Source: Sorangium aterium (GTDB taxonomy: Bacteria > Myxococcota_A > Polyangia > Polyangiales > Polyangiaceae). Taken from it: 64,000 nucleotides of DNA. The translations under genes were made by a program, and so were the position numbers. Location: positions 434,001 to 498,000 of the forward strand of contig NZ_JAQNDK010000003.1 in the NCBI RefSeq assembly GCF_028368935.1, read 5' to 3'. The notes below the pieces were generated by a model, which was not told the DNA's origin, made no database searches, and worked only from the letters and a program-made list of their open reading frames with translations. Positions 13,730-19,425 of the stretch are shown piece by piece (position 1 is the first letter of the stretch; each line of letters opens with the position of its first letter).

Positions 13730-14166
13730 CTATCCGATCGCCGTTCGCCGGGGTGGCGTGCAAGGCGAACCGGACCGCCAGATCGCCCTGCTCATCGGTA
13801 AGCCGATCGAGCCGGGGTCCCCGGACTGCGGCTCGCTCCTGTGCATGGTGAACGCGAATGGATCCGCGGGGGGCTGCGCGTTGGTGAGGTACGTGGCAGC
13901 CGACTGGAGAGCGAAAAAGATGCGAAGTTCGTCTTCCGCGGTGAGGTGCATCGTCCACTCGACCCAAGTCCTCGTCGACGTGGTGGTTGAATAGAACGTC
14001 GCGGGCGGGAGGTCGACCTGCTCAAGAGCGCACCGGGGGCGTCCGGACCGATGAGCGACGGGTCGAATCGGGCGCGATCGAGGCCGTTCACGAGGCTGAC
14101 GGCGACCTTCTGGATGCCTCTGACGTCGAGGTTTATGACCACGGTGCACGCGCTGATCTTCCGCAT
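13730..14166 (-). pseudogene. Truncated, frameshifted glycosyltransferase 5' fragment
   Basis: From ATG 14166 on the minus strand the first ~45 residues look like the N-terminus of a GT4 glycosyltransferase (VVINLDVRGIQKVAVSLVN, then LDRARFDPSLIG). The reading then fails: the best continuation moves to another minus-strand frame near 14020 (ALEQVDLPPATFY), which runs to a stop at 13730, and no GT catalytic half follows. Its 5' end overlaps, head to head, the start of the plus-strand glycosyltransferase. This is a decayed gene end left by rearrangement. Confidence 0.5.
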
Positions 14167-15602: not shown

Positions 15603-16629
15603 AGACGCCTCCGGCTGGTGCGCGTCGCACAGGCAGGTTGGGACGATGTCTCCCCGCGCGGCACGTTCCGGGCGACGCGCGGTCCGATCCCCCTGCACTC
15701 GCTCGGTGATGGACTGGGCGGCCGGCGCTCAAGGAGCGACGACCGTAGCCTGGAGAGGCTAATATGCCTTTCCGGTGCGCTGTACAGGAATCAGCGCAAA
15801 TCTGGTTGGTGAGCGTGCGTGGAGGCGGGAGGAGGACCGCGCGCCTCGCATTTCGCACCTTGCATCGGGCGACGCGCACGGAATGACGTGCACGCGGGCC
15901 GAGCGCTCCGGCCGGACACGACTAGACGGCGGATCTGCAAGCCGACTCCGCCGAGCAGGCAGGCGAGGCAGAGGGCGCGCTCTGCTGGGTCCACTACCGG
16001 GTCATCAACGACAGCGCGGGGGGTCGTGGTTTGCCCTGGATGGCCGAGGATCCGTTCAAGTACAAGCTCCTGGGCGACACGATGACCGGCCCCCAACGCC
16101 TGCACGGGTTTCTAGAAAACGGCGACCGCTGGACGTACGTCCACAACCACGTTCCTGCCGACATACCTACGACGTACATGTGTTGGGGTCTGGCCCCGAG
16201 AAGGAGGCATATTCGAGCATGGCGCTGAAGGCATCCACCGCCACGTCGTCCAGGACCACGAAGGTCCAAAAGAACGATTCTTCGCGCGAAGCGCAGGGCG
16301 CACCTCTCCTGTCCAACGGCGCAGCAGCGTATATGCTCAGCGCCGCCCACGAGGCCGAGCTCCTCCGAGAGGCCGAGCCGCTCGGCGAAACCACGCAGGT
16401 TTTCCCGGGCAAGGTCGTCGGGCGCGTGATCAGGGCGAGCCGCATCCAGCTCGCCCTGAGCGCGACGTGGCGGATCTCGTCCGGGAGCGGCGGACGAGGG
16501 CGAGCCCGACGCCGAGGTGGCGGACGAGGGCGAGACGGAAGCCAAGGCGACGGAAGACGTCGATCCCGGCAACGACGGCGCGCGGTGATCGCGCTGGACC
16601 GCCGCCGCACGGCCGAGGGCCGCGGCGCG
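15603..16629. other. About 1 kb of decayed coding sequence
   Basis: No intact gene can be defended here. A plus-strand frame from about 15927 to 16228 has coding-like codon use (for example PWMAEDPFKYKLLGD and LENGDRWTYVHNHVP) but lacks a start. A minus-strand frame ending at 16167 also looks partly coding. At 16484-16588 a plus frame encodes an acidic tail (DEGEPDAEVADEGETEAK) to a TGA, with a 15-bp direct repeat of GCGGACGAGGGCGAG at 16490 and 16520; its upstream part is missing. I read this as remnants of two or three genes, continuing the rearranged zone to its left. Confidence 0.4.
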
Positions 16630-16805
16630 AGTGCCTCCGTCAGGTCTGCAAGGGATGATTTCAGGATCGAAAGCTTCAGGGGTTTCCTGATGGGTAAGTT
16701 CTTGAAGGAGGTGCGGAAAGGCCCTGGCCCGTGTCCTGCTAAGTATCCAGAGCAGAGCGCCCGTGACGGCTTCCCCCCCGCCGTCGAATGGGCGCTCTGT
16801 TTTTT
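16630..16805 (+). ncRNA. Candidate structured RNA, copy 1
   Basis: This 176-base element recurs at 18520-18695 with about 17 substitutions and no length change before the terminator. Predicted helices: P1 TGATT/GATCG closing a TCAG loop (16656-16669); P2 TTCAGGGG (16675-16682) with TTCTTGAA (16699-16706); P3 GGT (16710-16712) with GCC (16721-16723) around GCGGAAAG; P4 CTGG (16724-16727) with CCAG (16747-16750) enclosing the invariant CCTGCTAAGTA; then an intrinsic terminator. Differences between the copies in P1, P2 and P3 keep pairing (C-G to U-G, U-A to U-G), the mark of selected RNA structure. It contains no sensible open frame and matches no riboswitch motif I know. It runs toward the 3' end of the hybrid kinase gene. 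Confidence 0.6.
16753..16805 (+). terminator. Intrinsic terminator of RNA copy 1
   Basis: CAGAGCGCCC (16753-16762) pairs with GGGCGCTCTG (16790-16799), and GACGGC (16765-16770) with GCCGTC (16780-16785), separated by a small internal loop and a C-rich apical loop, followed by six T residues. There is no T-run on the opposite side, so it terminates plus-strand transcripts only and is not the kinase gene's terminator. Confidence 0.85.
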
Positions 16806-16933
16806 GTGCGCCGGCGGCCCCGAGCCGCAATCCGGCGACGAACCCTCGCTCGATCTTGGACATAGGGGCTCTGCGACCAGTCGCTCGGCGCCGCGGTCAC
16901 CGGCCGGGGCACGAAGCCCGAGCTGGTCCCTTA

Positions 16934-18487
16934 TTAGGTTGCGCCCCCACCGCGCGCCGCGCAGCGCTTGGCGAGCAGCTCGGCGATGGCCTCTGTGTCG
17001 GCCGGCTTGGTCAAGTGAAGATCGAAGCCGGCGCGCCGCGCCTCGGCCTTGTCCTCGTCGCGGCCGTAGCCGGAGAGCGCCACGAGCAGGCAGCCCGCCG
17101 TCTCCTGCTCCCGGCGCGCCCTCCTCGCCACCTCGAACCCATCGAGGAGCGGCAGCCCGAGATCGATGAAGGCGATGTCGGGGCAGAGACGGCCGAACGC
17201 ATGGATCGCGGCGAGCCCATCGTGCTCCATCCACACCTCGTGGCCATGGAGCTCGAGGAGCATCTTGAGGCTCTCCGCCGTGTCCAGGTTGTCCTCGACG
17301 ACGAGGATCCGCAATGGGCTGCCGGCGGCTTTCTCGCGCAGGCTGGCCGGCTGCGTTTCGCGCGCGCTCTTGGGGAGCGCCGGCAGCGTCACCGTGAACG
17401 CCGCCCCCAGCCCCCGTCCCGCGCTCTCGACGTCGATTCGCCCGCTGTGCAGGTTCACGAGCTGCTTCGCCAGCCAGAGGCCAACGCCCAGCCCGCCCTG
17501 GGAGCGCGCGAGATCGGATGTCTCCTGCACGAACGCCTCGAACACCCGCGGTTGCATCCCCTCCTCGATGCCCACCCCGGTGTCCGTCACCCGGACGACG
17601 GCCTCACCTGTCTCCGAGCGGCTCACCTCGATGCCGATGCGCCCGCCCGGCGGCGTGAACTTGGCCGCGTTGGTGAGCAGATTGACGAGCACCTGGAGGA
17701 TGCGGACCCGATCCGCCTCGATCCGGAGCTGCTCGGCCGGGAGGGTGACCGAGAGCGTGTGCCCAGGGGTCTGGATAAACGGTCGGGTGGCCTCGACCGC
17801 CTCCTGTACCAGGTCAGCCAGCTCCAGCGTCTCCCGCTGAAGCGCGATTTTCCCGCGGTTGATGCGTGAGACGTCGAGCAGATCGTCGACGAGCCTCGCC
17901 ATGTGGGAGACCTGCCGCGCGATGATGTCGCGCGCGTACACGAACTTCGGATCCTCCAGGCCGAGGACGCGCATGATGGCCACCGCATTGCGGATCGGCG
18001 CGAGCGGGCCGCGGAGCTCGTGCGCCAGCATCGCGAGGAAGTCGTCCTTGCGGCGGTCGGACTCCCGCAGCATCTCCTCGAGCTCCTTGCGGCGCGTGAT
18101 GTCGGTGACCACGGCGATCCAGCCGTCCGGCGTCCCGCGTGCGTCGTGGGTGGGGACGTAGATCGCCTTGATCCAGCGCAGGCCCAGGCCTCGGAAGAGG
18201 ACCTGCTCCTCATACTCCACGCGCTCTCCCTGGAGCACACGGTCGAAGTACGGCTTGAGATCCTCGAAGGCCTGTGCCCCGACGATCTCGATGATCGTCT
18301 GCCCCACGATCTCCGCGACGGGCCGCGCGATCCACGCGGCGTACTCCGGGCTCACCCAGAGGTAGCGGAGGTCGCGGCTGCAGTACGTGACCGCGGCGGC
18401 CATCCGGTCCGTCACCATCCGGAGCTGCTCCAGAGCCGCCCGCAGGCCCGCCTCAGTCTCATGCATCGCCGAACTCTCCGCGCTCAT
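16934..18487 (-). CDS. PAS-histidine kinase-receiver hybrid sensor
   Basis: This soluble 517-residue hybrid kinase has no transmembrane segment. A PAS domain spans about residues 20-135 (ending VVTDITRRKELEEML). The HisKA dimerisation helix contains FLAMLAHELRGP with the phospho-accepting His156. The ATPase domain has the N box NLLTNAAKFTPPGG, G1 DTGVGIEEG and G2 GGLGVGLWLAKQL. A C-terminal receiver begins RILVVEDNLDTAESL near 393, with phospho-acceptor Asp442 in AFIDLGLPLLDGF and the conserved Lys in HLTKPAD. No response regulator or output gene is adjacent, so phosphotransfer probably goes to a distant partner. The gene sits exactly between two copies of a structured RNA; copy 2 starts 33 bases upstream in the divergent direction. 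Confidence 0.92.
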   Translation of the reverse strand: MSAESSAMHETEAGLRAALEQLRMVTDRMAAAVTYCSRDLRYLWVSPEYAAWIARPVAEIVGQTIIEIVGAQAFEDLKPYFDRVLQGERVEYEEQVLFRGLGLRWIKAIYVPTHDARGTPDGWIAVVTDITRRKELEEMLRESDRRKDDFLAMLAHELRGPLAPIRNAVAIMRVLGLEDPKFVYARDIIARQVSHMARLVDDLLDVSRINRGKIALQRETLELADLVQEAVEATRPFIQTPGHTLSVTLPAEQLRIEADRVRILQVLVNLLTNAAKFTPPGGRIGIEVSRSETGEAVVRVTDTGVGIEEGMQPRVFEAFVQETSDLARSQGGLGVGLWLAKQLVNLHSGRIDVESAGRGLGAAFTVTLPALPKSARETQPASLREKAAGSPLRILVVEDNLDTAESLKMLLELHGHEVWMEHDGLAAIHAFGRLCPDIAFIDLGLPLLDGFEVARRARREQETAGCLLVALSGYGRDEDKAEARRAGFDLHLTKPADTEAIAELLAKRCAARGGGAT

Positions 18488-18519
18488 GCCACCCCGACCG
18501 GCGCGACCCGAAGCATTCC

Positions 18520-18695
18520 AGTGCGTCCGTCAGGTCTGCAAGCGGCGATCTCAGGATCGAAAGCTTCAGGGGCTTCCTTACGGGTAAGTCCTTGAAAAGG
18601 GTGCGGAAAGACCCTGGCCCGTCTCCTGCTAAGTAACCAGGACAGAGCGCCCGTGACGGCTTCCCCCCCCGCCGTCGAATGGGCGCTCTTTTTTT
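18520..18695 (+). ncRNA. Candidate structured RNA, copy 2
   Basis: Second copy of the 176-base element. Pairing is stronger here: CGATC/GATCG around TCAG (P1), TTCAGGGG with TCCTTGAA (P2) with an inner CTTA/TAAG hairpin, GGGT/ACCC around GCGGAAAG (P3), and CCTGG/CCAGG enclosing the same CCTGCTAAGTA loop (P4), followed by the terminator. It begins 33 bases from the hybrid kinase start, pointing away from it, so the two would share a divergent promoter region. The sequences immediately upstream of the two copies are unrelated, so the shared block marks the transcript or a mobile unit rather than a duplicated gene neighbourhood. Confidence 0.6.
18644..18695 (+). terminator. Intrinsic terminator of RNA copy 2
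   Basis: AGAGCGCCC (18644-18652) pairs with GGGCGCTCT (18681-18689); GACGGC (18655-18660) with GCCGTC (18671-18676). The loop is one C longer than in copy 1. Seven T residues end the run at 18695. It lies beyond the 3' end of the convergent O-methyltransferase gene but the T-run serves only the plus strand. Confidence 0.85.
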
Positions 18696-18750
18696 GTGGG
18701 CCGGCGCGGGAGGGCGCGAGGAGCGCCCGGCAGACGCTGGGCCGGTGCGG

Positions 18751-19425
18751 CTACGGACCCTCGGTGACGAGGACGATGGCGAGACCGTCGTATCCCTTGC
18801 TGCCCACGGTCTGGATCGCGGTCGCGCTCACGCGTCGCTCGGTGGCAAGCAGCTTGTTCAGGCGGCGCACGCCCTGGACGCTGGGATCGGCGCTCTCGGG
18901 GTCGATGATCGCCCCCTTGCGAACGACGTTGTCGATCACGATGACGCTGCCGCGGCGGGAGAGCTTGAGCGCCCACGCGAAGTAGTCGGGATTGCTCGGC
19001 TTGTCGGCGTCGATGAAGATGAGGTCGAACGGGCCGCGGCCCTCCGCGGCGAGCTTGGGCAGCGTGTCGAGCGCTCGCCCCAGGCGCAGCTCGACGATGT
19101 TGGCCAGCCCGGCGCGATCGAGGTTCGCGCGGGCGACCTCGGCGTGCTTCGGCTCCGACTCCAGCGTGATCAGGCGGCCGACGGCAGGCAGCGCCCGCGC
19201 GAGCCAGATCGTACTGTAACCCCCGAGCGTGCCGATCTCCAGGATGGTCCGCGCCCCCTGGATCCGCGCCAGGAGATGCAGCAGCTTGCCCTGGTTCGGC
19301 GCGACGTTGATCGGCGGCAGGCCGGCCGCGGCGCTGGCCGCGAGCGCCGCATCGAGCGCGGCGTCGGACGGCACGAGCGTATCGGTGAGGTAGCGATCGA
19401 CGGCGGACCATTGCTCCTGAGACAT
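18751..19425 (-). CDS. SAM-dependent O-methyltransferase (class III type)
   Basis: Start ATG 19425 is fixed by a strong GGAGGAGG nine bases upstream; the product has 224 residues. The SAM-binding motif I is ARTILEIGTLGGYSTIWLARAL (residues ~58-79), the acidic residue binding the ribose is in LITLESEPKH, and the Mg-binding catalytic Asp is in PFDLIFIDADKPSNPDYF, followed by GSVIVIDNVVRKG. This matches the CCoAOMT/COMT-like family (Methyltransf_3/24), which methylates catechol-type hydroxyls using a divalent metal. It is a monocistronic gene with no biosynthetic neighbours, so a detoxifying or housekeeping role is as likely as natural-product tailoring. Confidence 0.9.
   Translation of the reverse strand: MSQEQWSAVDRYLTDTLVPSDAALDAALAASAAAGLPPINVAPNQGKLLHLLARIQGARTILEIGTLGGYSTIWLARALPAVGRLITLESEPKHAEVARANLDRAGLANIVELRLGRALDTLPKLAAEGRGPFDLIFIDADKPSNPDYFAWALKLSRRGSVIVIDNVVRKGAIIDPESADPSVQGVRRLNKLLATERRVSATAIQTVGSKGYDGLAIVLVTEGP

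Follow-up and report, generated by a model that had tools for sequence, protein, structure and literature searches.

Candidate sigma-54-dependent small genes for poly-C hairpin RNAs in Sorangium and related myxobacteria

A unit of 176 nt that is directly repeated in the 13.5-Mb genome of Sorangium aterium probably consists, in each copy, of a sigma-54 promoter followed by an RNA of approximately 55 nt, which is predicted to fold as a single hairpin whose loop holds seven or eight C residues (C7 to C8), with a U-tract. Related genes, in many cases several to a genome, occur dispersed among soil myxobacteria. Two copies lie in the window (the whole stretch of 64,000 nt of DNA that was analyzed), where a first-pass annotation had noticed them and proposed a structured RNA. 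Sequence comparison establishes the promoter architecture of these units, their covarying stem and constant C loop, their copy number, and their distribution.

RESULTS

The repeat unit and its extent

The two copies in the window, at positions 16630-16805 and 18520-18695, form a direct repeat just as originally described. By alignment and a hand count, the copies differ by 17 substitutions and align without a gap as far as the poly-C run; blastn reported 89% identity across 176 nt. Indels inside the unit are confined to the C-run (7 versus 8) and the position just before the T-run, and the same two-part stem plus T-run closes both copies (Table 1). The repeat is well beyond chance, with blastn placing it at 7 sites in its own genome (E = 4.4e-87 to 2.7e-8) and giving hits in 5 of the 115 genomes searched within the order, its own included. 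In line with the earlier statement that no known riboswitch motif fits, Rfam 15 yielded zero matches at gathering scores across the whole window and 0 matches up to E = 1 in the region 16500-18800.

TABLE 1 Features of the two repeat copies and the neighboring gene, in window positions
Feature	Position	Strand	Basis
Copy 1 upstream palindrome A, putative activator site UAS1, CGTCAGGTCTGCAA	16638..16651	+	Letters, motif statistics
Copy 1 upstream palindrome B, putative UAS2, TTTCAGGATCGAAA	16659..16672	+	Letters, motif statistics
Copy 1 IHF-like box TAAGTTCTTGAAG, weak	16695..16707	+	
Copy 1 putative sigma-54 promoter -24/-12, TGGCCCGTGTCCTGCT	16725..16740	+	GG-N10-GC
Copy 1 predicted 55-nt poly-C hairpin RNA, C7 loop, U-tract	16751..16805	+	Fold -35.4 kcal/mol
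Copy 2 upstream palindrome A, putative UAS1, CGTCAGGTCTGCAA	18528..18541	+	Letters, motif statistics
Copy 2 upstream palindrome B, putative UAS2, TCTCAGGATCGAAA	18549..18562	+	Letters, motif statistics
Copy 2 IHF-like box TAAGTCCTTGAAA, weak	18585..18597	+	
Copy 2 putative sigma-54 promoter -24/-12, TGGCCCGTCTCCTGCT	18615..18630	+	GG-N10-GC
Copy 2 predicted 55-nt poly-C hairpin RNA, C8 loop, U-tract	18641..18695	+	Fold -30.6 kcal/mol
Neighboring PAS-HisKA-HATPase-receiver hybrid histidine kinase	16934..18466	-	Pfam, ORF; alternative start codon 18487

The first-pass annotation interpreted the whole unit as one structured trans-acting RNA of 176 nt or a mobile RNA unit, with hairpins P1 to P4 common to both copies and sequence differences that preserve pairing. 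The direct repeat does span the full 176 nt, and the two copies have folding z-scores of -2.3 and -3.0, to which the strong terminator must contribute. Upstream of that terminator, however, the two copies fold differently, and RNAalifold applied to 31 members recovered the terminator stem only, both for the whole set and for its Polyangium subset; the own-genome subset (n = 7) gave the terminator stem and one long-range helix. The conserved blocks instead correspond to sigma-54 and activator sites at exact spacing, and the supposedly compensatory differences in P1 to P3 fall in or between these DNA sites. Covariation between palindrome letters 3 and 12 is only weak, these being T-A or G-C in 118 of 219 sites when approximately 102 are expected from the marginal frequencies. 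A sigma-54 promoter, activator-type palindromes, and an IHF-like box take up approximately 120 nt of the unit, which is therefore probably not transcribed as a whole; probably only its last 55 nt or so should be. We therefore consider a single 176-nt RNA or a mobile RNA unit very improbable. The suggestion of a multicopy family stands, as does that of an intrinsic terminator, and a trans-acting small RNA remains probable, whereas the single 176-nt structure is unsupported. The case is an example of how the conservation of promoter DNA can be mistaken for a structured RNA when just two copies are in view.

Mobility was rejected on separate grounds. The window copies do not align past the unit, open reading frames (ORFs) flanking the Polyangium copies are common to strains, and no viral contig carries the hairpin pattern. 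A CsrB-like sponge with GGA motifs was a passing idea that was dropped once the blocks turned out to be promoter-like.

Distribution of the family

A pattern describing the hairpin matched 25 times in six of six Sorangium genomes, whereas the reversed control gave 0 matches. In a named genome collection, the same pattern identified 39 stretches in Sorangium, Polyangium, Minicystis rosea, and MAGs assigned to Myxococcales or Polyangiaceae; a match in Streptomyces (L067) was judged on reading to be due to chance. Two covariance models were built, R1 from 63 pattern matches (14 pairs, terminator only) and R2 from 81 matches. R1 has hits (E ≤ 0.01) in 43 of 108 own-family genomes, and R2 has hits in 47 of 377 genomes across the phylum. 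The R2-positive genomes comprise 26 from the own family (own genome included), 14 from other families of the order, 1 from the same class, and 6 from elsewhere in the phylum. Thirteen of the 14 other-family genomes were fetched, one match among them (L204) being masked upstream, and G031 was left out of the reading. Six of the seven matches outside the order were read, and two (L205 and L206) look genuine, but L207, L208, L209, and L227 do not.

Some matches in other Sorangium genomes lie only a few kilobases apart (G115:C1:958227 and 967001; G116:C1:1006406, 1006803, and 1012318; G117:C1:752767, 753344, and 758556), which suggests a conserved cluster of these putative RNA genes.

Promoter and upstream sites

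Within an alignment of 76 hand-chosen members, 7 columns are invariant (76 of 76), and these include a GG and a GC exactly 10 bases apart. A wider set was assembled from 176 places, from which L204 was dropped because of Ns and near-duplicates were merged to leave 156 non-redundant members. GG-N10-GC is kept in 144 of these 156; among the other 12, nine retain TGGCAC with an altered -12 element and three were judged false. We favor a sigma-54 promoter because divergent members change the hairpin stem yet keep TGGCMC-N5-TTGC together with two TTKCA-N4-TGMAA palindromes upstream. R1 and R2 hold promoter and hairpin together, and thus the co-occurrence of these two elements in their matches arises partly by construction.

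The palindromes sit outside both models, and their enrichment is therefore independent of R1 and R2. Scores of at least 9 out of 10 were obtained for 76% of 51, 79% of 61, and 75% of 36 members in three groups, the first of which (n = 51) includes copies from the own genome that a blastn search with the full unit had identified, compared to 0.3%, 2.5%, and 2.5% of shuffled sequences, respectively. The best palindrome begins at a median of 58 to 59 nt upstream of the model start. This enrichment and stereotyped position point to the palindromes as putative activator-type sites. Between them and the -24 element lies a box that resembles the reverse of the IHF consensus. It scores at least 8 out of 9 in 42 of 148 members versus 4.7% of shuffles, which is moderate support at best for an IHF-like site.

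The predicted poly-C hairpin RNA

Transcripts from sigma-54 promoters usually start 12 nt past the C of the -12 element, and the RNA starts of both window copies and of the other own-genome loci were placed accordingly. Because the predicted start sits at the foot of what had been called a terminator, the RNA would be only approximately 55 nt long. For the analysis of its features, the 156 members were reduced to 149 by discarding seven that appeared false by eye (L123, L161, L167, L172, L207, L208, and L209). The longest C-run is 6 to 11 nt in all 149 members, most commonly C8 (66 of 149), although four of the seven discarded members had been excluded for want of a long C-run before these counts were made. 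At least 60% of the C-run is unpaired in 148 of 149 members, at least 8 base pairs enclose it in 147 of 149, and a T-tract follows the hairpin in 139 of 149.

The two arms of the stem were also paired across members. Arms from the same member pair at a median of -30.3 kcal/mol versus -16.5 kcal/mol for arms swapped between dissimilar members (812 swaps), and the own-arm pairing beats 95% of the swaps in 140 of 149 members. Therefore, stem pairing is conserved despite turnover of the stem sequence.

A control covering the full distribution of C-run lengths used all candidates for a hairpin followed by a T-run in 513 kb around the members (n = 149 candidates). The longest C-run was 5 nt or shorter in 69 and 6 to 11 nt in 80, and a sigma-54-like motif precedes 74 of the 80 long-C candidates versus 7 of the 69 others. 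The remaining 6 of the 80 are members with a variant -12 element (one listed twice) and one unit of a Minicystis array. With 74 carrying the motif and these 6 explained, long C-runs occur in hairpins of these loci only in company with a sigma-54-type promoter. On this evidence, we consider it very probable that the units are sigma-54 promoters with a short poly-C hairpin transcript.

The RNA itself could conceivably be functionless, with the loci serving as activator-titration sites or being relic promoters insulated by a terminator. The predicted product is indeed little beyond a terminator, and the activator sites are well conserved. Against this reading, the C loop persists across families of the order despite the turnover of the stem, and hairpins at the same loci that are without this promoter lack the C loop. 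We consequently regard a functionless RNA as improbable.

Several loci hold more than one hairpin. In Minicystis rosea, a tandem array of five poly-C hairpins with T-tracts lies downstream of a single promoter (L037:4788-5093, the same place as L128), and L127 is a second hairpin array in this species. Tandem hairpins are also seen near L171 and L120 and possibly L206. In the own genome, two copies with unlike hairpin types lie 8 kb apart (L282:5827-5916 and 13860-13947).

A converse search with the promoter region

Model R3 comprises the palindromes, the box, and the promoter, with the hairpin left out. In the own genome (G000), it identified 12 sites at E < 1e-3 plus one site shared with R2 at E = 0.019. 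These 13 sites were read, leaving out R3 matches at C2:1331228 (E = 0.0035) and C6:207326 (E = 0.0186) and weaker ones, and 11 of the 13 promoters are predicted to yield a poly-C hairpin RNA of 51 to 59 nt with C7 to C9 in the loop and a U-tract.

Twenty extra R3 sites were read in six Sorangium genomes, extra meaning absent from the R1 list, R2 having been run on G000 alone. A C6 to C10 hairpin is located directly downstream of 11 of the 20. The other nine are without a long C loop, and thus this promoter type appears to serve mainly, but not solely, poly-C hairpins. These nine fall into two other conserved types. Four sites (L260, L263, L264, and L272) have a hairpin that lacks a long C-run and lies ahead of a similar ORF (88 to 135 aa), and five (L261, L262, L267, L268, and L270) have a different conserved sequence with a long inverted repeat. 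The ORF, present in four Sorangium genomes, contains ..VREVDESVLKDLESKYADVACPMHGGPPTFELA.., and the second type, present in five Sorangium genomes, has a conserved CAGAGCGCCCGG.. stretch whose long inverted repeat is ACCACGGAGACACGGAGGCACGGA.., perhaps representing another kind of RNA.

Neighboring genes and candidate activators

In the window, the gene for a PAS hybrid histidine kinase is preceded by copy 2 and followed by copy 1, and the first-pass annotation associated the RNA with this kinase. Across 40 loci, however, histidine kinases recur at only 4, and the largest neighbor cluster among the 14 listed is protein kinase-like (9 loci). Protein kinases and histidine kinases are probably common in these genomes. 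Given these frequencies (9 of 40 and 4 of 40 loci), we treat the kinase as incidental. Two further clusters among the 14 cover four loci each, with three of the four members coming from one genus in each case, and no recurrent local partner gene beyond kinases was found among the 14 neighbor clusters listed.

An activator gene next door was likewise rejected, since motif searches reveal none consistently near the copies. No gene with sigma-54 activator motifs was present in 332 kb around 18 non-Sorangium loci, and 978 kb around other loci contained one such gene, approximately 5 kb from a copy. Matches to PF00158 at E ≤ 1e-20 number 76 in the own genome, all of them candidates for the cognate activator, and 64 in another (G012).

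DISCUSSION

Proposed mechanism

We propose that each repeat is a complete small gene. An activator of sigma-54 (enhancer-binding protein) would bind the two palindromic sites, and an IHF-type site would probably bend the DNA between these sites and the -24/-12 promoter. The promoter would then drive synthesis of an RNA of approximately 55 nt that is almost entirely a stable intrinsic-terminator hairpin, with an all-C stretch of 7 to 8 bases in its loop. Activation of this protein would induce about a dozen scattered promoters in the own genome at once, and the exposed C loop would act in trans, either by pairing with G-runs in target RNAs or by titrating a C-binding protein. Transcription, the start site, a single shared activator, and action in trans are the steps that we infer. 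We have moderate confidence in the proposal as a whole, namely, co-induced sigma-54 small genes whose poly-C hairpin RNAs of approximately 55 nt act in trans.

For the mode of action, we consider pairing of the C loop with G-runs of target RNAs, by analogy with RepG and perhaps with Pxr, the likelier of the two, at slightly short of an even chance. Against this reading, seven G residues located 3 to 12 nt before an ATG showed a nearly equal pooled enrichment, measured against a reversed control, of 1.92 in 40 carrier genomes versus 1.85 in 75 genomes without a detected copy (Mann-Whitney p = 0.52), and the comparison genomes may hold undetected copies. This result may leave room for a few specific targets.

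Alternatively, the hairpins could act as a sponge whose C loops titrate a C-preferring RNA-binding protein rather than pair with mRNAs. Rho and a cold-shock-type protein are candidates for such a partner. A sponge would be consistent with a C loop that stays constant while the stems vary freely, with the many copies per genome, with several hairpins being served in tandem by a single promoter in Minicystis and, it appears, in other cases, and with a G-run signal that is not specific to carriers. The protein is a candidate only, however, a single C8 loop is a small site, and most members read have a single hairpin. We thus consider a sponge unlikely, although less so than a functionless RNA.

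Relationship to Pxr and RepG

Judged by analogy of their biology, the closest relative of the poly-C RNAs is Pxr of Myxococcus xanthus. The accessible text on this small RNA describes a predicted sigma-54 promoter with an enhancer region, control by PxrR and PxrK, and an essential stem-loop 1 (PMC5684412, PMC5568312, PMC10217877). Stem-loop 1 loses its activity when a C in its loop is changed to A, the probe 3'Biotin-TEG-pxr is reported to bind it, and Cystobacter carries tandem pxr paralogues (PMC5684412, PMC5568312). Like the poly-C genes, therefore, Pxr is a myxobacterial small RNA gene with a predicted sigma-54 promoter and an upstream enhancer region, and the complement of the published probe holds the C-rich stretch CCCCCCACCCC. 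The differences are also considerable. As described in these sources, Pxr is 108 nt long with three stem-loops, adjoins the activator gene pxrR, and arose at the base of Cystobacterineae, whereas the RNAs here are predicted to be one hairpin of 51 to 59 nt at 11 own-genome loci, are many per Sorangium genome, and have no activator gene consistently nearby. Moreover, pairing of Pxr with its likely target is predicted, in the available part of one report, to proceed mainly via the third stem-loop and not the C-rich first (PMC11928866), which speaks against carrying the Pxr mechanism over directly. The 26-nt complement of the probe, allowing up to 3 mismatches, gave 0 matches in 377 genomes of the phylum and 57 genomes of another class, a collection with no identified Myxococcaceae and so no positive control.

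RepG of Helicobacter pylori provides a mechanistic model by analogy. In the portions of the publication available, the C-rich loop of its terminator hairpin is the working part and pairs with a homopolymeric G-repeat, and a mutant with the second stem-loop alone still works (PMC8295292). The RNAs described here share the C-rich terminator loop; their C-run is C6 to C11, and all but one of the 149 members leave at least 60% of it unpaired. RepG differs in being described there from one locus, in having an extra stem-loop, in having a C/U-rich rather than all-C loop, and in belonging to another phylum.

If the proposal is true, about a dozen unlinked Sorangium loci would make up a single sigma-54 regulon with mostly terminator hairpins as its products, and the poly-C RNAs would be among the shortest small RNA genes known to us. 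Polyangiales would gain a candidate for a system corresponding to the developmental checkpoint formed by Pxr, and comparison could test what the C-rich loop of Pxr binds. In a literature search conducted mostly without subscription papers, we found no description of such RNAs in work on small RNAs or sigma-54 in Sorangium and other myxobacteria, nor any small RNA of this kind for Polyangiales. A broader reading, which we offer tentatively and deem somewhat unlikely, is that these are ancient, order-wide minimal RNA genes of Myxococcota in which the hairpin is the whole RNA, one activator fires up to a dozen or more unlinked copies, and Pxr, which acts as gatekeeper of fruiting in Myxococcus, is a late, elaborated member. 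The cell would in that case be flooded with C8 loops that either bind G-runs or sequester a C-binding protein.

Comparison with the Qrr RNAs

The Qrr RNAs of Vibrio use Hfq and are unlike the poly-C RNAs in size and sequence. For myxobacteria, the accessible text of one report states that no hfq homologue was found (PMC5684412). Several sigma-54 Qrr small RNA genes occur per Vibrio genome, with paralogue numbers given in the part available to us (PMC5568312), and in this respect they resemble the poly-C family. The LuxO site of Vibrio is given as TTGCAWWWTGCAA in the accessible text (PMC10162802). This site resembles TTKCA-N4-TGMAA, although its spacer is 3 nt and that of the palindromes described here is 4 nt.
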